Part shown: positions 2,951 through 54,298 of the stretch, piece by piece
Layout: each line of letters opens with the position of its first letter
Position numbering within the stretch: the first letter of the stretch is position 1
From: Roseinatronobacter domitianus
Lineage (GTDB): Bacteria > Pseudomonadota > Alphaproteobacteria > Rhodobacterales > Rhodobacteraceae
Length of the DNA stretch: 64,000 bases
Assembly: GCF_023336755.1 (NCBI RefSeq)
Contig: NZ_JALZWP010000010.1
Coordinates: forward strand, 1 to 64,000
Reading direction: 5' to 3'
Made by a program: the position numbers and the translations under genes
Notes under the pieces: model-generated
What the model saw: only the letters and a program-made list of their open reading frames with translations
Databases searched by the model: none
Told to the model about the DNA's origin: nothing

Positions 2951-3025
<75 letters not shown>

Positions 3026-11938: not shown

Positions 11939-12550
11939 ATGGCCGATGCTCGGGACGAAATTGACGCGTTAATCAGCCAGTTCGCGCGGTTGCCGGGGCT
12001 TGGGCCGCGGTCGGCGCGGCGTATGGTGTTGCACCTGTTGCAGCGCCGCGACACAACGTTGCGCCCCTTGGTTGTCGCGTTGGACCGTGTGGCGCAGACG
12101 GCGCAACTCTGCACGCAGTGCGGCAATATCGCCACCGCCCCGATTTGCGACATTTGCGCCGACCCAAAACGCGCCACCGGCGAGATTTGCGTGGTCGAGG
12201 ATGTCGCCGATCTTTGGGCCATGGAGCGCGGGCAGGCGTTTTCCGGGCGCTACCATGTGCTGGGCGGCACGCTTTCGGCGCTCGATTCCGTCGGGCCGGA
12301 GGATCTGAGCATTCCGCAACTGGTGGACCGCATTGCATCCGAGAATATCCGCGAGGTGATCCTGGCGCTTGGGGCGACGGTCGATGGCCAGACCACGGCG
12401 CATTATATCGCCGAAGCGGTCGAGCAGACCGGCGTTACGCTCAGCGCATTGGCGCAAGGTGTTCCGGTCGGGGGCGAGCTGGATTTTCTGGATGATGGCA
12501 CCATTGGGGCCGCGCTGCGGTCGCGCCGCGCATTCTTACACGCACTTTGA
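11939..12550 (+). CDS. recR: Recombination mediator RecR
   Basis: RecR works with RecF and RecO to load RecA on gapped DNA. The 203-residue protein shows an N-terminal helix-hairpin-helix ([20 protein letters not shown]), the four-cysteine zinc finger [18 protein letters not shown], and a Toprim domain with [14 protein letters not shown] and the C-terminal [19 protein letters not shown]-like end (here [18 protein letters not shown]). It follows ybaB by 6 bases in the usual order. Confidence 0.96.
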
Positions 12551-12581: not shown

Positions 12582-12639
12582 CAAAACCATGTTTCCGTGA
12601 TCGCCTTGTCCGACTGGCGCGCGGAGGATGTGGTTGGTG

Positions 12640-14547
12640 ATGGGAAATCTTGCGGTTCAGCAACAGACGACAGTGCCGCCCCTGCGCAGCACCGCATTGC
12701 GTGTGCTATCCGGCAACGGCCCGCCACGCCAGCCGCTTGGTGAAATTCTGCGCGACATGGGCGTTCTGAGCGCAACGCAACTGATGCAGGCCACGCGCCA
12801 GCAAGACGGGCGCTCGGCCCTGCTTGGAGAGATATTGCGTGCGCGCCGTTGGATAACAGAGGCACAGCTGACGCAGGCTTTGTCGCGACAATACGGGGCG
12901 CGGTTCATGACCGATGCGTCCTTGCCCCCGGACCCGCGCCTGTTGGACAGGCTCGGCGTTGTCCGGGCCTTGTCGCTCAAATGCCTGCCATGGCGCGCTG
13001 CCGGTGGCCTAACCGTGGTGGCCACTGCGCGGCCGGCGGAATTTGAACGCCAACGCCCGGAACTGGAAGCGGTGTTCGGCCCTGTGGTCATGGTGCTGAT
13101 TTCGGAAACCCATTTGCACGAGCGTGTTCTGAACCTGCGCCGGAACCGCTTGCGGCTTTGGGCCGAAAGCTGCGTCGCCGATGACGAAAGCTGCCGCATG
13201 TTGCAAAACCGCTGGTTCAGCCGCACGCTTGCGGTTCTGCTTGCCGTAATCGTGGTTCTGGCTGTGCTGTGGCCGATGGGGGTGCTGGTGGCGCTGACCG
13301 GGCTGGTTGTGCTGGCCCTGACTGTGTCGACCCTGCTGAAGCTGGCTGCGGCTTTCGCCGCCTTGCGGCGCGTGCCAGACCCTGCGACCCCGCCGCATAA
13401 CTGGGTGCCAGACCCGATCGTGTCGATCATGGTGCCGCTCTATCGGGAGCCAGACGTGGTGCCACGCCTTGTCAACCGGTTGGCGCGGCTGACATGGCCG
13501 CGTGAATTGACCGATATTCTTTTGGTGGTCGAGGAAAACGACCATCTGACCCGCGACGCGCTGGCCGCGCAGGTTTTGCCCGCGTGGGTCCGCATTATTC
13601 CGGTGCCCGATGCCAAGCTGAAAACCAAACCTCGCGCGCTGAATTACGCGATGACCTTCGCGCGGGGCAGTATTGTCGGGGTCTATGACGCAGAGGATGC
13701 GCCAGAGCCGGACCAGATTCACCGTGTTGTCGCGGCGTTTACGACAGGGCCTGAAAACCTTGCCTGCGTTCAGGGAGTTCTGGATTTCTACAATCCCGAG
13801 GTGAACTGGCTGTCACGTTGTTTTACCATCGAATATGCGACATGGTTTCGCGTCATTCTGCCCGGAATGCAGCGGCTTGGGCTGGCCGTGCCCTTGGGTG
13901 GTACGACCCTGTTCTTTCGCCGTGATGTGTTGGAGGATTTGGGCGGTTGGGACGCCCATAACGTGACCGAAGATGCCGATCTGGGCATTCGTCTGGCCCG
14001 GCACGGGTTTGTCACGCATCTGCTGCCCACTGTCACCTATGAGGAGGCGAATTGCCATGTTCTGCCCTGGATCAAGCAGCGGTCGCGCTGGCTGAAAGGG
14101 TATGCGATTACCTGGCTGGTTCATATGCGCCAACCCAAGCTGTTATGGGCGCAACTTGGGGCATGGCGCTTCTTTGGGGTGCAGGTGTTGTTCCTGGGCA
14201 CGCTGGTTCAGTTCCTTCTGGCACCCCTGTTATGGAGCTTCTGGCTGATGATCTTCGGGCTGGGCCATCCGCTACAAGACAGCCTGCCACGGCAAGCGTT
14301 TGGGGCGCTGGCTGCGGTGTTTTTGCTGGCAGAAGCCACAACGCTCGGGCTTGGGGCGGTGGCGTTGCGGTCGCGGCATCATTCCGGGCTGTGGCGTTGG
14401 TTGCCGGCGCTGCATGTCTATTTCCCGCTCGCAGTTCTGGCCGTCTACAAGGCTCTTTGGGAGCTTATCTCTGCCCCGTTCTATTGGGACAAGACCGCCC
14501 ATGGAAAATATGCCGGGGCGCAAGAAGCGTCAGTCGTTCAGGCTTAG
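12640..14547 (+). CDS. Membrane glycosyltransferase (GT2) with N-terminal MshEN c-di-GMP-binding-type domain
   Basis: The 635-residue protein fuses two modules. Residues 32-84 hold two tandem MshEN-type motifs (PLGEILRDMGVLSATQLMQ... and LLGEILRARRWITEAQLTQ...), the type that binds cyclic di-GMP in GspE/MshE ATPases; the second motif has Arg70 where Gly is usual. Two membrane segments lie at about 196-234. A processive GT2 domain follows, with Asp350/Asp353 (YDAEDAPEPD), EDAD at 444-447 and QRSRW at 480-484, then several C-terminal membrane helices. It should polymerise a sugar at the inner membrane under c-di-GMP control. The start is uncertain: GGAGG at 12623-12627 suits GTG 12637 or ATG 12640 better than ATG 12628. 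E. coli NfrB combines the same domains in another order. Confidence 0.85.
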   Translation: MGNLAVQQQTTVPPLRSTALRVLSGNGPPRQPLGEILRDMGVLSATQLMQATRQQDGRSALLGEILRARRWITEAQLTQALSRQYGARFMTDASLPPDPRLLDRLGVVRALSLKCLPWRAAGGLTVVATARPAEFERQRPELEAVFGPVVMVLISETHLHERVLNLRRNRLRLWAESCVADDESCRMLQNRWFSRTLAVLLAVIVVLAVLWPMGVLVALTGLVVLALTVSTLLKLAAAFAALRRVPDPATPPHNWVPDPIVSIMVPLYREPDVVPRLVNRLARLTWPRELTDILLVVEENDHLTRDALAAQVLPAWVRIIPVPDAKLKTKPRALNYAMTFARGSIVGVYDAEDAPEPDQIHRVVAAFTTGPENLACVQGVLDFYNPEVNWLSRCFTIEYATWFRVILPGMQRLGLAVPLGGTTLFFRRDVLEDLGGWDAHNVTEDADLGIRLARHGFVTHLLPTVTYEEANCHVLPWIKQRSRWLKGYAITWLVHMRQPKLLWAQLGAWRFFGVQVLFLGTLVQFLLAPLLWSFWLMIFGLGHPLQDSLPRQAFGALAAVFLLAEATTLGLGAVALRSRHHSGLWRWLPALHVYFPLAVLAVYKALWELISAPFYWDKTAHGKYAGAQEASVVQA

Positions 14548-14648
14548 GGTGTGTAATTATAGACGCAATCTGCTCTGGGTGGTGGACCGGGGCCAAAAAC
14601 TTTGCTACTTTCAACCGTGAAGGGCAATACAACGCAGGAGCGCACGGC

Positions 14649-15293
14649 TTGCTGGTATTTTTGAAGCATCGCCTTGTGGTGTTCTCTACGCCCAAATGTG
14701 GCAGCACCGCTTTGGAACAGGCTTTGGCGCCCGCGTCAGACATTGTGTTGCAGGGCGATCCGCGCATCAAGCATTGCACATTTCATCGCTACAAATGGCG
14801 TTTTGAGAAATTCCTTCAGATATTCGACCAAACCCCTATGACCACCGCCGCGCTGATCCGCCACCCGCAAGATTGGCTGGGCAGCTGGTATCGGTATCGG
14901 CACGGGTCCTGGTTGGATGGCACGCCACAAAGCACAAAGGGGCTGAGTTTTGATGAGTTTGTCGAAGGGTATCTGGCAGAGACGCAGCCCGCCTTTGCCG
15001 CCGTTGGGTCGCAGGCGCGTTTTCTGACCCATCCGAAAACTGGCGAAACAGTGGATCATCTGTATTGTTATGACGCGTTTGACGGGTTTCAGGCGTTTCT
15101 GGAGGATCGTCTGGGCCAGAGCTTTGCGCTGGACCGTGTCAATACCTCGACCGAATTGCAACTGACGCTGTCGCCGTCTTTGGCGCGACGGTTGGAAGCG
15201 GCCTATGCGGCTGATTTTGCCTTGTATGAAACCGCCTATGCCCCCAAACCCAAAAGCCGTATGCGCGCGCTGTTCCAATCCCTTGCAAGCTGA
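14649..15293 (+). CDS. Sulfotransferase family protein
   Basis: The 214-residue P-loop protein begins, after a TTG start, with VFSTPKCGSTALEQAL (residues 11-26), the 5'-phosphosulfate-binding loop of PAPS-dependent sulfotransferases. A likely 3'-phosphate-binding region is AALIRHPQDWLGSWYRYR, the usual R-x-P-x-x-W/S arrangement. It would transfer sulfate to a carbohydrate or other hydroxyl. TTG at 14649 is preceded by AGGAG with 8-base spacing, and no closer ATG exists. It lies 101 bases after the MshEN glycosyltransferase on the same strand, so the polymer made by that enzyme is a plausible acceptor, though this is inference. Confidence 0.78.
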   Translation: MLVFLKHRLVVFSTPKCGSTALEQALAPASDIVLQGDPRIKHCTFHRYKWRFEKFLQIFDQTPMTTAALIRHPQDWLGSWYRYRHGSWLDGTPQSTKGLSFDEFVEGYLAETQPAFAAVGSQARFLTHPKTGETVDHLYCYDAFDGFQAFLEDRLGQSFALDRVNTSTELQLTLSPSLARRLEAAYAADFALYETAYAPKPKSRMRALFQSLAS

Positions 15294-15346: not shown

Positions 15347-17035
15347 ATGGGGTTGGAAGAACGGATCGCGGTTGCGCGGGGCGAGGGTGTGGCCGATCTG
15401 GTGCTGCGGGGGGCGCAGACGCTATGTATGGTCACGGGCGCGCGGCTTGGCGGTGATGTCGCCATCCATGACGGGCAGATCGTGGGCGTGGGCGAAGCCT
15501 ATGAGGGCGCGCGCGTCATAGACCTGAGCGGCCATGTTCTGGTGCCGGGTTTCATCGACACACATCTGCATATCGAATCCTCGCTTGTTACGCCCTATGA
15601 ATTTGACCGCTGTGTGGCCCCGCGCGGGGTCACGACCGCCATATGTGACCCGCATGAGATTGCCAATGTCGCGGGGGCAGAGGGTATTCGGTATTTCCAG
15701 CGCGCCTCGGAACACACGGTTATGGATATTCGCGTAAACCTGTCCTCTTGCGTGCCCTCTACCCATATGGAAACCTCTGGGGCTTCGCTGGATGCCGACG
15801 CGCTTCTGGCCTTGCGCGATCACCCGTCTGTCATCGGGCTGGCAGAGTTCATGAACTTCCCCGGCGTCATTCACCGCGACCCCGGTTGCATGGCCAAACT
15901 GCATGCCTTTGCGGGCGGCCATATCGACGGGCACGCGCCGCTTCTGTCGGGGCGTGATCTGAACGCCTATTGCGCAGCCGGTATCCGCACCGAGCATGAG
16001 GCCACCTCTGCCGAAGAAGCCCGCGAGAAGCTGCAAAAGGGTTTGCGCGTGCTGATCCGCGAAGGGTCCGTCAGCAAGGACATGGTTGCACTTGCGCCGT
16101 TGCTGTCGCCCACGACCGCGCCTTATATGTGTCTGTGCACCGATGACCGTAACCCGTTGGATATTGCCGAACACGGCCATATTGACCACATCATCCGCAG
16201 CCTGATCGCCATGGGGTGCGATATGCTGGCGGTGTATCGCGCGGCGACCCTGTCGGCCGCAGAAGCCTTTGGGCTGAAGGATCGCGGCCAGATTGCGCCG
16301 GGCAAGCGCGCGGATATCGTGGCGCTGCCCGATCTTGCAACATGTCGGGCGGCGATGGTCATCTGTGGCGGGCAGGTGGTCGATGACGCGGCTTTTGCCG
16401 GGCGGCAGGTGATTGACCCGGTTGCGCGCGAGTCTGTGCGCGCGCCGAAGGTCAGCGCACAGGATTTTCGCCATGCCGGGAATGCGCCAGAGACGCCCGT
16501 GATCGGCATTATAGAGGGCAAGATCATTACAGAGCATCTGCGGCTCGACATTGCGCCAGACGGTGGCGACAAACGCCCCGACCCGGCGCGCGATCTGGCG
16601 CGTGTGGCCGTCATTGAACGGCATGGCAAGAACGGCAATATTGCCACCGGTTTCGTGCGCGGCTTTGGCCTGAGGCAGGGCGCGATTGCGGCGACCGTCG
16701 CGCATGACCACCACAATATTGTGGCCGTTGGAATAGAGTATGACGATCTTGCGCTGGCCGCCAACCGTTTGGCAGAGATCGAAGGCGGTTTCGTTGTGGC
16801 GCAAGGCGGCAAGATTATAGCGGAATTGCCGCTGCCGGTCGCAGGGCTGATGGCGCTCGACAGCTACGAAGAGGTCCACAGGCGGCTGGTAGCGTTGCGC
16901 GCGGCGGCAAAATCGCTGGGCGTTACTCTGGAAGAGCCGTTCCTGCAATTGGCCTTCATCGCATTGCCGGTTATTCCGCACCTGAAGATCACGGATTACG
17001 GGATGGTCGATGTCGATAAGTTCGAGGTGATCTAA
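15347..17035 (+). CDS. ade: Adenine deaminase
   Basis: The enzyme hydrolyses adenine to hypoxanthine and ammonia in purine salvage. The 562-residue protein belongs to the amidohydrolase-fold adenine deaminases: metal ligands in [18 protein letters not shown] with GVTTAI before it, the GHAPLLSG histidine motif, RTEHEATS, and CTDDRNP. The family-specific C-terminal domain with [17 protein letters not shown] and [12 protein letters not shown] is present. It is preceded by a 53-base gap without a recognisable riboswitch and stands as a single transcription unit. Confidence 0.96.
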
Positions 17036-47837: not shown

Positions 47838-49598
47838 TTATGCAGAGCGCAACAACGTGTCGCAGCGTTCTTCATTGGCGCAGGCGCTTGTCAGGTCCGG
47901 CGACAGCTTCACCATTGCGTCGAACTGGGTCAAAAAGACCTCTCCCGTTAGGTCATCCATGAAATGGCCACGTTCTAGCTGGTCCATGACCGGGCCTTTC
48001 ACTTCCGACAGGTGAAACTGCACACCACCATCTTTCAGCCGGGTGTTGATCGCTTCCAGACTTTCCAGCGCCGAGGCGTCTATATAGTTTACAGCCGTGC
48101 ATTGCAGCACAACATGACGCAGCCCCGGCTGGTCGGACAGCGCTTGCACAATCCGATCCTCTAACGCGCGGGCATTGGGGAAATAGAGCGACTCGTCCAC
48201 CCGGATCGCGAAAACCGTAGGGTCGGTGGCAACCTTGTGGCGCGCGACATTGCGGAAATGCTCGGTCCCGGCCACTTGGCCCACGACCGCCATATGCGGG
48301 CGCGAGGTGCGGAACAGGAACAGCCCCAGCGACAGGCCAACACCTGCCAACAAGCCTTGCTCTACGCCGACCAGCAGCGTGAACAGCATGGTTGCCGCCA
48401 TCGCAGCCCCATCGGCGCGGGAATAGGACCAGGTTCGGGGCAGGGCGCGGAAATCCAGCAGCGACAGCACCGCCACAATGATGATCGCGGCCAGCGTGGC
48501 GCGCGGCAGGAAATACATCAGCGGCGTCAACACCATGATCGCCGCCGCGATTGACAATGCCGTCATGGCGCCCGCCGCCGGGGTCGTGGCCCCCGCATCA
48601 TGGTTGACGATGGTGCGCGCCAAACCACCCGTGACCGGCATGGCATTCGACACGCCTGCGCCGATATTGGCCAGTCCGAGCGCGATCAACTCGTTATCCG
48701 GGTTGACCGATTCGCGTTTCTTGGCGGCCAGCGTTTGCCCGATGGAAATGCTTTCCACATAGCCCACGATCGAAATCATGATGGCGGGCACAATTAGCAG
48801 TTGCATCAGGTCCAGATCGACCGTCGGCAAGCCAAAATCGGGCAATCCGCGCGGGATCTCTCCCAATATCGCGACGCCGAAGCGTTCCAGCCCAAAGACC
48901 CATACCAGCAGGGTAGAGACGACGACCGCCACCAGAAGTGCTGCCTTGGCCAGAAGCCGCGCGCTTGGTGCCGACAGGCCCAGACGCATCAGGACCGGGG
49001 CGGCACCCTTTCGCGACCAGAACAAAAACACCAGCAAGACCGATGACAGGATCACCGTGGCCGGGGTCATGTTGCCAAGATTTCCGACAATAGAAGGCAC
49101 CACTTGCGGCAATGTCTTGCCGCTGATTGGTGCGCCCAGCAAATGGCGCAACTGGCTGGCTGCGATCAGGATGCCAGAGGCCGTGATGAACCCCGACATC
49201 ACCGGATGCGACAGAAAACTTGCAATAAAGCCCAGACGGAACAGGCCCATCAACAGCATCATGGCGCCAGACATCAGCGCCAGCCACAACGCGGCGAAGT
49301 GAAATTCTGCGCTGCCTGTTTCGGCAACGACACCTGCCGCTGCGGCTGTCATAAGCGCAATCACCGCCGCTGGCCCGACCGCAAGACTGCGCGACGTGCC
49401 AAACAGTGCATAAAGCAACAACGGCAGGATTGCCGCGTAAAGCCCCGCTTGCGGCGGCAGGCCCGCCAGCATTGCATAGGCCATGCCTTGCGGGATCAGC
49501 ATGATCGTCACAACCGCGGCGGCGATCGCGTCATTGGTCAGATCGGCGCGAGAGTAACCGGGAAGCCATGACAGGATCGGAAAATAACGCTTCAGCAT
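47838..49598 (-). CDS. SulP family anion transporter with STAS domain
   Basis: The 586-residue protein has the SulP transport domain (LPGYSRADLTNDAIAAAVVTI, IPQGMAYAMLAGLPPQAGLY, the SAVGPAAVIALM-like stretch and VGYVESISIGQTLAAKKRE) with about 10-14 helices, then a C-terminal STAS domain from about residue 460 (VFAIRVDESLYFPNARALED, VVLQCTAVNYIDASALESLE). SulP proteins import sulfate, bicarbonate or organic anions; the substrate is not readable. Adjacent genes give no clue. Confidence 0.93.
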   Translation of the reverse strand: MLKRYFPILSWLPGYSRADLTNDAIAAAVVTIMLIPQGMAYAMLAGLPPQAGLYAAILPLLLYALFGTSRSLAVGPAAVIALMTAAAAGVVAETGSAEFHFAALWLALMSGAMMLLMGLFRLGFIASFLSHPVMSGFITASGILIAASQLRHLLGAPISGKTLPQVVPSIVGNLGNMTPATVILSSVLLVFLFWSRKGAAPVLMRLGLSAPSARLLAKAALLVAVVVSTLLVWVFGLERFGVAILGEIPRGLPDFGLPTVDLDLMQLLIVPAIMISIVGYVESISIGQTLAAKKRESVNPDNELIALGLANIGAGVSNAMPVTGGLARTIVNHDAGATTPAAGAMTALSIAAAIMVLTPLMYFLPRATLAAIIIVAVLSLLDFRALPRTWSYSRADGAAMAATMLFTLLVGVEQGLLAGVGLSLGLFLFRTSRPHMAVVGQVAGTEHFRNVARHKVATDPTVFAIRVDESLYFPNARALEDRIVQALSDQPGLRHVVLQCTAVNYIDASALESLEAINTRLKDGGVQFHLSEVKGPVMDQLERGHFMDDLTGEVFLTQFDAMVKLSPDLTSACANEERCDTLLRSA

Positions 49599-49706
49599 AG
49601 CAGGGTCCCGTTGGTTCAGGCGGCCCGTGTCCGAAGCAGGGCGGGCGGCATTACATGGCCCCTATATATTTGTCAGATAATATATTGCAAGTTATGAATA
49701 TAACTT

Positions 49707-50474
49707 TCAGCCCGATAACCGCGCCCAGACATCGCGCACCGGGAGCAATTCGGCACCCAAAGCGGTCGCGTCATCCAGCAGGCTTTCCAGTATCTCTGGG
49801 GTCACGCCGTAGGGGCTGGGGTGTGGACGCACATCATGGGTGAACATAACCAGCCAACCACCTGTAGTTGCAGCATGTTTCATCATGCGCCGAGCTGCGG
49901 CGACATAGTCGGGACGATGGCTGCCAAGGTCGCAGGCAAATAGTTGCATCCGGTCTGCAAAAGCTCTGTTGACACCGCTCCGCACGCCACGCGCCGTCGT
50001 CACATGCGGCACAAGCGCCCGTTTCAGCGTCAGCGTTGTCTCGCCATAGGGATAGGCGAAATGCGGGCTTGGAGGCTCTCCAAGAATATCCTGCAACGCT
50101 TTGATATTGCGCTCGATATCGGAAATCGCTTCGGCCATTGGCACATGTGTCAGATCGCCATGTGCATGGGTGTGCAGCGCGATCTCATGCCCCCGCGCGG
50201 CAAGCTCGCGCAAGCGGCTTGGCGTGGTGATCGGCCCGGACACGCCATCTTGCCCCAGCAGCCCGGTCGCAATGAAAAAGGTTGCCTGTAGCGACCGTTC
50301 TTCAAGAATTTCTATTCCGCGTGTGCAGGCACTGTCGGGGCAATCATCAAACGCGAAAGACAGATGGAACCGCGTATCCGACCGCAAAAACGGCGCGACG
50401 CGCACCATGCCGGTCAGGCGCCGCGCCACCCGGCGCGAAAAAGTCCGCCGCTGTTCGTGGTCGCTGTCATTCAT
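49707..50474 (-). CDS. Polysaccharide deacetylase (NodB fold)
   Basis: The 255-residue protein has the carbohydrate esterase 4 fold: the FAFDDCPDSACTRGIEILEE motif with metal/catalytic Asp-Asp, the HTHAHGDLTH histidine motif, and FAYPYGETT. It would remove acetyl groups from N-acetylated sugars. There is no signal peptide, so it may act in the cytoplasm. Its start overlaps the stop of the upstream glycosyltransferase gene by 8 bases, so the two form one operon. An AT-rich 7-base-pair hairpin touches its stop codon. Confidence 0.88.
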   Translation of the reverse strand: MNDSDHEQRRTFSRRVARRLTGMVRVAPFLRSDTRFHLSFAFDDCPDSACTRGIEILEERSLQATFFIATGLLGQDGVSGPITTPSRLRELAARGHEIALHTHAHGDLTHVPMAEAISDIERNIKALQDILGEPPSPHFAYPYGETTLTLKRALVPHVTTARGVRSGVNRAFADRMQLFACDLGSHRPDYVAAARRMMKHAATTGGWLVMFTHDVRPHPSPYGVTPEILESLLDDATALGAELLPVRDVWARLSG

Positions 50475-51363
50475 GATACACCCAAGCATATTTGGACGCG
50501 CGGTAGAATTTCAACGCGTATAACCGCACCGCAATGGGCAAGCCGGCGAATAGGGCAAGCCGTTTGAAGCCGCGTCCCAGAACCTGCTGAAAGGGCAGAA
50601 AAGACAGCAGATACGACACGCGCGCAATCGGCATACGCCGCACATTATCGGGATACAAGCGGCGAATACGCCGAAAATTCTCGACGGATTCGGCATATTT
50701 CGTAATCAGCACTGCATCGGGTTCCAGCCCACGATGGCGCGCAGGATTGTCGATATGATGCACCGGGCTGTCGCGCACAATGCGCCATCCCCATTCCACA
50801 TCTTCCCATCCCCAAGCCTGAAATTGCGGGTCAAAGAGGTGGCGCTCGACGATGGTGCGGTGAACGAAAACCGACGAGCTATAGACATAGCGACCGGGAT
50901 CGCGGGCGCGGTGACGGGCGGGTTTACATTCGGATTTCACAGATTGCGCGGCGTGCAGACGATTTGCGGGGGTGATGTCGGACGCGTCGATCCGAAATCC
51001 GCCAACAACGCAACAGGCATCGCCATGGCGCTGCGCCGCCGCACGATACGTTTCGATGAAATCGGGCCGGTCCAGAGACATATCTGCATCGAGCATCAGC
51101 ACCCAGTCCGACCGGATCTCCTGCAACATCACATTGCGGGCCTGCGCGCGACCAGAATTGGCGGGCAGCGTGAACAGAGTGGCCGGGCCGGGATGTTCTG
51201 CCAGCGCCTTGGCCAGACGGCGCGACAAATCCGGCAAATCCGACCCGTCATCGCATAGCAGCAGGCGGTAGCGATCTGCGCCATTCTGGCAGGCCAGCTC
51301 CATGACAAGGGGGACAGGGTCATCCTTGAAAAACGGGATGCAGACATCCACGCTCGCTGACAT
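50467..51363 (-). CDS. Glycosyltransferase family 2
   Basis: The 298-residue protein is a GT-A glycosyltransferase: VDVCIPFFKDDPVPLVMELA, LLLCDDGSDLPDLSRR, SGRAQARNVMLQ, the metal motif LMLDADMSLDRPDF, and GWEDVEWGWRIV for the acceptor side. The C-terminus (SYLLSFLPFQQVLGRG...) has an amphipathic or short membrane part. It forms an operon with the NodB-type deacetylase and may make a deacetylated surface glycan. I chose the ATG at 51363 because the conserved fold begins there. Confidence 0.88.
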   Translation of the reverse strand: MSASVDVCIPFFKDDPVPLVMELACQNGADRYRLLLCDDGSDLPDLSRRLAKALAEHPGPATLFTLPANSGRAQARNVMLQEIRSDWVLMLDADMSLDRPDFIETYRAAAQRHGDACCVVGGFRIDASDITPANRLHAAQSVKSECKPARHRARDPGRYVYSSSVFVHRTIVERHLFDPQFQAWGWEDVEWGWRIVRDSPVHHIDNPARHRGLEPDAVLITKYAESVENFRRIRRLYPDNVRRMPIARVSYLLSFLPFQQVLGRGFKRLALFAGLPIAVRLYALKFYRASKYAWVYHE

Positions 51364-51589
51364 CGTGTCGCGCCAGTCCTGTCTGGAGACAATGGGTAAA
51401 ATAATGAAACCCCTTTGATACTTAATCCAAAGATAGGGTAGCAAAAGAGCGGAACCATGGCGACCGATCTATTTTGCCCATAATCAGTATTATGTTAAAT
51501 TTATAGTATGCAAAAGACCGCTGCCTTGCAGCACCCGCAGCAAGCGGCTATCAGGCACGCAACCGCGTTCCACGAAAAGGCCCTGTCGC

Positions 51590-53156: not shown

Positions 53157-53230
53157 CACACCTACACGCTTTATTGACGGTTTATCGGCCAAGCTGCGAG
53201 CATGTCTTTTCAGAACGCAACCGGCTTGCC

Positions 53231-54298
53231 ATGACCAAAACGAACACCGCAGTTGCTGGCGCGCGCGCCGCGACCATTGCTGCGCCGCGGGCGCGCACCG
53301 ATCATCTTAGCGGCACTCAGAAAGCGGCTATAATCTTGCGGGTTCTGTTGGCCGAAGGGGTGGATTTGCCGCTCTCCAGCCTGCCCGAACACGAGCAGAC
53401 GGCGCTGACCCGCGCGCTGGCCTCTTTGCGGCTCATCGACCGCCCCACCATGTGGGCCGTGGTTGAAGAATTTGTCGAAATGCTGGAACAGGTCGGCATG
53501 TCCTTCCCAGAGAGTATGGAGGAAGCGCTGGCCTTGCTCGATGGCAAGCTGGATGCCCGGGTCAGCACCAAACTGCGGGCAATTGCACGCGGCGGGCCGG
53601 GCGACGACCCGTGGACGGCGATCGAACTTGCAGACCTGCCTGCCCTGACGGCTGTTCTGCAACGCGAAAGCACGGTTGTCGGGGCCGTTGTCTTGTCCAA
53701 GCTCAGCACCGAAAAAGCGGCTGCCCTGCTAACCGCCCTGCCCGGTGATCTGGCGCAAACCCTTGCTCTTGCGGTCGCGCGCACCGACAGCATTTCCCCG
53801 GACGCGGTGTCACGCATTGGCCTGTCGCTGGCAGACCAGTTGCGCGACAAGCCGCCGCGCGCGTTCGCCAGCCCTTCAGCTCAACGGATTGGCGATATTC
53901 TGAATTCCTCGTCCTCGGCCCTGCGCGACCGGCTGTTATCCGGGCTGGAGCAGTCGGACCAAACCTTTGCAAGCGGCGTGCGTCGGTCAATCTTCACCTT
54001 TCAGGATATTCCGAATCGTGTCGGCGCGCGCGATGTGGCAGCGATCCTGCGCAATCTCGCGGATGAGGATCTGCACGTGATCCTTGCCGCCGATGACCCC
54101 GGCAGTCGCGCCACGATGGATTTCATGCTGGAAAACACCAGCAAACGCCTTGCGGAAGGACTGCGCGAAGACGCGGCCACCCTGCCCCGCCCCTCAGCCG
54201 AAGACCTTGATGCGGCCCAAAGCCGCGTTTCGGCCGCAATCCGCGCCATGGCCGATGCGGGTGATCTGCAACTGGTATCGGCGGCTGGCGCGACCTAG
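53231..54298 (+). CDS. FliG-like motor switch protein (orphan)
   Basis: The 355-residue protein aligns along its length with FliG, the cytoplasmic rotor protein on which stator units push. It shows LSGTQKAAIILRVL at about residues 26-39, DPWTAIELADLPALTAVLQRE with KLSTEKAAALLTALP (armadillo part), then RIGDILNSSSSALRDRLLSG and the C-terminal domain IFTFQDIPNRVGARDVAAIL...ENTSKRLAEGLREDAATLPR. The torque-helix region reads DEDLHVILAADDPG, where flagellar FliG has LxxALKGA. No flagellar gene is next to it; the nearest neighbours, convergent, encode MotA- and MotB-like proteins. It may be the flagellar FliG or a paralogue. Confidence 0.8.
   Translation: MTKTNTAVAGARAATIAAPRARTDHLSGTQKAAIILRVLLAEGVDLPLSSLPEHEQTALTRALASLRLIDRPTMWAVVEEFVEMLEQVGMSFPESMEEALALLDGKLDARVSTKLRAIARGGPGDDPWTAIELADLPALTAVLQRESTVVGAVVLSKLSTEKAAALLTALPGDLAQTLALAVARTDSISPDAVSRIGLSLADQLRDKPPRAFASPSAQRIGDILNSSSSALRDRLLSGLEQSDQTFASGVRRSIFTFQDIPNRVGARDVAAILRNLADEDLHVILAADDPGSRATMDFMLENTSKRLAEGLREDAATLPRPSAEDLDAAQSRVSAAIRAMADAGDLQLVSAAGAT

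Follow-up and report, generated by a model that had tools for sequence, protein, structure and literature searches.

What does a membrane glycosyltransferase do with a signalling domain at its front end, and does the gene beside it share in the task? These questions are raised by a gene at positions 12628-14547 (+) of the first 64,000 nucleotides of contig NZ_JALZWP010000010.1 of Roseinatronobacter domitianus (hereafter the window), which encodes a 639-residue protein in which an MshEN domain precedes a glycosyltransferase family 2 (GT2) domain. A preliminary description of the window had proposed that this protein and a neighbouring sulfotransferase make a possibly sulfated surface polysaccharide under the control of cyclic di-guanosine monophosphate (c-di-GMP). 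We consider it moderately probable that the MshEN-GT2 protein is a surface-glycan synthase of the Rhodobacteraceae whose MshEN domain is a regulatory receptor of the c-di-GMP type, partly worn in the window's species. In family members whose motifs are intact, the c-di-GMP site would lie between the two 24-residue MshEN motifs; by analogy with NfrB of Escherichia coli, bound c-di-GMP would switch the GT2 on, and the activated enzyme would polymerise a surface glycan and move it through the inner membrane. We infer binding and the direction of control, and the identity of the polymer and the export partner of the GT2 are equally inferential.

The MshEN domain spans residues 36-163, N-terminal to the GT2 catalytic domain at residues 263-490 (13414-14097); an alternative ATG start lies at 12640. 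The domain opens with motif I at residues 36-59 (PLGEILRDMGVLSATQLMQATRQQ; 12733-12804), followed by motif II at residues 65-88 (LLGEILRARRWITEAQLTQALSRQ; 12820-12891) and by a C-terminal part (12892-13119) matched by Pfam PF05157. The two MshEN-like motifs that had been noticed ahead of a complete GT2 are indeed present: the protein scores 45.1 bits with the MshEN profile NF053729 (cut-off 38) and 27.8 bits with PF05157 (cut-off 23.1), and modelling of the N-terminus, a check proposed at the time, gave the full MshEN fold. A motif match alone was rejected as proof of MshEN, since, of 2000 shuffled versions of the protein, 112 matched the published relaxed motif equally well. The two motifs picked out by eye are not decisive; the domain call is carried by the profile scores together with the predicted fold and conservation in the family. 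A promoter scan gave chance-level results only.

Two long helices ahead of the GT2 domain (residues 195-214 and 216-246; 13210-13365) and the C-terminal helices (residues 503-615; 14134-14472) are probably membrane-spanning in the predicted model. The catalytic domain carries DAED at 354-357, TED at 447-449 and QRSRW at 484-488, conserved in 89-90 of 91 alignment rows (109 proteins collapsed to 91 rows; L107, which contains a stop, was left out, and L003 is a gap row whose genome, G179, was examined directly). The Asp motif, TED and QxxRW of processive GT2 enzymes are thus all found, with Asp-Ala-Glu in the Asp-x-Asp place. The protein is a membrane glycosyltransferase of the cellulose/hyaluronan-synthase type, widespread in the Rhodobacteraceae, and its probable role is to make a surface glycan polymer and pass the product across the inner membrane.

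The fusion exists as first described, but to regard it as a local curiosity would be mistaken, as it belongs to a near-core gene of the family. A GT2 homologue (E <= 1e-60) occurs in 357 of 394 Rhodobacteraceae genomes, with two matches in 10 of the 357 and one in the remainder (at most three candidates were scored per genome, and absence means no match at this threshold). A class-wide sample of 190 genomes yielded homologues at E <= 1e-30 in 25, of which 22 lie outside the family, and several of these class-level homologues match from the MshEN part onward. Among 80 named loci, carA is the immediate upstream neighbour, in the same orientation, in 66 of the 77 with enough sequence; downstream, a GntR-type regulator follows in 54 of 66. 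No recurrent polysaccharide operon was found among the neighbour clusters of the GT2 loci.

The window's genome encodes three GGDEF (cyclase) domains, each of which reads GGEEF. It also has two PilZ matches, of which one lies in a BcsA-like protein, and its only Pfam MshEN match is the GT2 fusion. The N-terminal attachment of MshEN to a processive-type GT2 is borne out, in a genome with three such cyclase domains. Across an alignment of 61 proteins (the window's and 60 of 79 usable locus proteins), the c-di-GMP motif model matches 58, and one family member, L053, has 22 of the 22 relaxed motif sites. The family consensus reads P-L-G...L...L..Q/R in motif I and R-L-G-D-I-L-L-A-H-G...L...L..Q in motif II. 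In the window's genome, the frame L231:1288-3717 (-) resembles the cellulose synthase BcsA and has a PilZ match, making it a second candidate for a c-di-GMP-controlled synthase.

What weighs against this reading concerns the receptor site, the pattern of gene loss and the product. When 27 is subtracted from window residue numbers to obtain those of MshE (motif alignment), the protein keeps 9 of the 12 c-di-GMP contact sites of MshE, comprising both Gly, both Gln and five of six Leu. Both motif-start Arg are gone (Pro36 for Arg9, Leu65 for Arg38), Thr56 replaces Leu29, the second contact Leu of motif I, and Arg74 replaces the turn Gly47. The first of these changes is shared, with Pro for the first Arg of motif I in 63 of 91 rows. 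In motif II the turn Gly is kept in 65 of 91 rows and the Arg in 62. The Arg in place of Gly to which the preliminary description drew attention is real and is a sign of wear: in its own clade only the window has it, the nine rows L032-L040 and the congener G179 having Gly, but it recurs in 5 of the 91 family rows, the window included, and it is accompanied by loss of the motif II Arg, which is missing throughout the clade (9 of 9 rows L032-L040, plus G179). R. ekhonensis (L032) shows a different, separate change, contact Gly to Cys. Since motif II of the published relaxed motif is complete in only 34 of 91 rows and both motifs in 13, wear is not limited to the window. With Leu sites scored as L/I/V/M, at least 11 of the 12 contact sites are kept in 11 of the 61 proteins, 10 in 24 and 9 or fewer in 26; in 16 only 4-8 are left. 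According to PMC5013675, the turn Gly is required for the helix turn in MshEN, XpsE lost binding through several such motif changes, and perfect motif conservation may be dispensable. Judged from sequence, the second half-site in the window's species is partly worn; therefore c-di-GMP binding is expected to be weaker than in its relatives, and possibly nil, and weak or absent binding in this species is a serious alternative.

On that account, MshEN in the window's species or clade would be a structural leftover or would bind another partner, and the GT2 would be constitutive or controlled by protein contacts. The missing Arg residues, the changed turn Gly and contact Leu, the separate Gly to Cys change in R. 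ekhonensis and the family members reduced to 4-8 contact sites all speak for it. The domain has nevertheless been retained with a full predicted fold and a low ratio of nonsynonymous to synonymous substitution rates (dN/dS), its nine remaining contact sites are still in place, and the congener G179 retains the turn Gly. Within the genus, dN/dS is about 0.13-0.28 in the motif part, 0.19-0.26 in the C-terminal part of MshEN and 0.04-0.08 in the GT2 domain; the values are rough because synonymous changes are near saturation, and by this measure the MshEN domain is under constraint, though weaker than that on the enzyme part. Taken together, we regard a leftover domain as rather unlikely. Another way to accommodate the wear is to read the half-site in Roseibaca-type species as a retuned switch, of lower affinity or for another ligand, within a near-core, undescribed, c-di-GMP-gated glycan synthase that has MshEN before GT2 and disappears in almost all lineages that have lost GGDEF; this fuller proposal we put forward tentatively, as possible but short of probable.

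Its component on gene loss concerns an association that is not specific. GGDEF is absent from 19 of the 394 family genomes, and the GT2 is missing in 18 of these 19 versus 19 of the other 375 (Fisher p 6e-20, uncorrected for relatedness); of the 37 GT2-less genomes, 17 were named by elimination and 12 are under 90% complete, and G157, counted among the 375, scores under the Pfam cut-off. The sole GGDEF-less genome with the GT2, G322, is 71% complete and has no rpoB match, so it is off the tree. That rpoB tree comprises 67 genomes (79 were asked, 69 had a match and 2 partial ones were dropped); GGDEF changes state 12 times on the best tree, and at least 4 times if only supported branches are counted. 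The supported branches yield only four independent pairs, for which a sign test is not significant; the GT2 changes alongside GGDEF in a mean of 2.7 of the 4 pairs and never in the opposite direction. A neutral control, PhaC, is kept in 13 of 19 GGDEF-less genomes and in 19 of 20 GT2-bearing ones. A second control, the polysaccharide priming transferase PF02397, is kept in only 4 of 19 GGDEF-less genomes (gone in 15), in 37 of 41 sampled GT2-bearing genomes and in 12 of the 19 with GGDEF but without GT2, and the loss rates of the GT2 and PF02397 in GGDEF-less genomes are not different (p 0.34). A 295-genome set includes 15 of the GGDEF-less genomes, and the sulfotransferase is absent from every one of them, 11 of the 15 being named by elimination. 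Because PF02397 and the sulfotransferase are also lost, GT2 loss tracks the loss of surface-polysaccharide genes as a whole, and its co-loss with GGDEF was rejected as specific evidence for c-di-GMP. Loss of every GGDEF protein has recurred in several lineages (the 19 of 394 genomes), mostly along with polysaccharide priming transferases, and is an observation in its own right; four of the GGDEF-less genomes measure 4.7-5.6 Mb.

As to the product, the best match of the predicted model in a VIA-align comparison, among the best 50 entries, is PcManGT (6yv7), a mannosyltransferase and not a polymer synthase, and no export gene was linked to the GT2 in the loci examined. Instead of making a polymer, the enzyme might add a single sugar to an acceptor, either a lipid or a protein; with the TED and QxxRW of processive enzymes on the other side of the balance, we think this unlikely.

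The downstream neighbour of the GT2 gene encodes a 214-residue sulfotransferase-like protein with a TTG start (14649-15293, +), which adjoins the GT2 gene in the window's clade only. It had been called a sulfotransferase of the 3'-phosphoadenosine 5'-phosphosulfate (PAPS) type. In favour of that assignment, K16, R71 and S79, which we take to be the places of the PAPS-loop Lys and the 3'-phosphate Arg and Ser, are invariant across 31 aligned sequences, but the Pfam sulfotransferase score of 19.3-19.6 bits is below the cut-off of 22. Weak Pfam similarity (E <= 0.01) to Sulfotransfer_1 is seen in 6 and to Sulfotransfer_2 in 10 of the 31 members, and no solved structural relative was found at a convincing E-value. 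The GT2-sulfotransferase pair occurs in 7 of the 74 loci that have at least 800 bases downstream (L032-L034 and L037-L040, all from the window's clade) and in none of the other 67; at L035 the sulfotransferase is partly visible beside the GT2 at the contig end. Loss of the neighbour from all close relatives had been named as an outcome that would refute the proposal; this is not what is seen, since the closest clade keeps the pair, which leaves a small probability for a sulfated product. The sulfotransferase family itself is present in 204 of 295 genomes. The MshEN-type GT2 is absent within about 1.5 kb of it in all 28 loci taken from other genera, and among 30 loci taken around the sulfotransferase the GT2 is present only in the window's own and in that of G179.

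That the two genes form one pathway, making a c-di-GMP-controlled, sulfated surface polysaccharide, gains some plausibility from their order. A block of GT2, sulfotransferase and adenine deaminase (15347-17035, +, in the window) is found in 7 of 7 clade loci with enough sequence despite differing upstream genes: it follows recR in the window (11939-12550, +) and in L032-L034, and carA in L037-L040, and its three genes appear to have moved together. An adenosine 5'-phosphosulfate kinase match is present, so that a source of PAPS probably exists. However, the adenine deaminase is as tightly linked as the sulfotransferase, the latter scores below its Pfam cut-off, and the pair is missing from all loci with enough sequence outside one clade. 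The sulfotransferase represents a separate, widespread family and need not act on the GT2 product. A sulfated product deduced from adjacency was rejected, the pair being restricted to one clade, and the single-pathway proposal strikes us as improbable.

Elsewhere in the window, a gene for an HK97-type phage major head protein (442-1689, +; PF05065 118 bits, phrog_10 172 bits) lies about 1.3 kb from a tRNA-Thr (2951-3025) and is possibly a prophage or gene-transfer-agent gene. A sulfate permease, a polysaccharide deacetylase and a second GT2 adjoin each other at 47844-51444 (-), some 33 kb from the MshEN-GT2 gene, and possibly mark a separate surface-polysaccharide spot. The flagellar motor gene fliG is found at 53174-54292 (+).

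MshEN-glycosyltransferase fusions have already been published (PMC5013675 and PMC8669469), and NCBIfam already annotates the MshEN domain; in our literature searches we recognised no paper on the front-end MshEN-GT2 of the Rhodobacteraceae. If c-di-GMP binding is confirmed, the protein would be a surface-glycan effector of c-di-GMP common to most of a large family, for which the same searches brought up no paper describing one. The natural series of intact to worn sites would then lend itself directly to asking which MshEN residues signalling requires. Among the systems compared, E. coli NfrB, in which c-di-GMP activates a GT2 carrying MshEN according to PMC8669469, was the parallel originally drawn. 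It holds insofar as a membrane GT2, with TED and QxxRW motifs, and MshEN are joined in a single protein, but the order differs, MshEN being C-terminal in NfrB, and the window protein scores 33.8 bits with the full-length NfrB model (cut-off 1170), its best stretch covering only the MshEN part (residues 33-133). Its adjacent genes, recR and the sulfotransferase, are not a pair of the nfrA/ybcH type (the rest of the genome was not searched for nfrA), and most relatives examined have carA and the GntR regulator adjacent, not an nfrA-type gene. The archaeal PcManGT aligns to window residues 217-617 only, excluding the MshEN part, and the CelA/BcsA model TIGR03030 gives 50.4 against a cut-off of 699. 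In Vibrio cholerae MshE (PDB 5htl) the MshEN domain sits on a pilus ATPase, whereas here it sits on a glycosyltransferase; and where BcsA (4p00, 9fnn) has PilZ at its back, the window protein has MshEN at its front.
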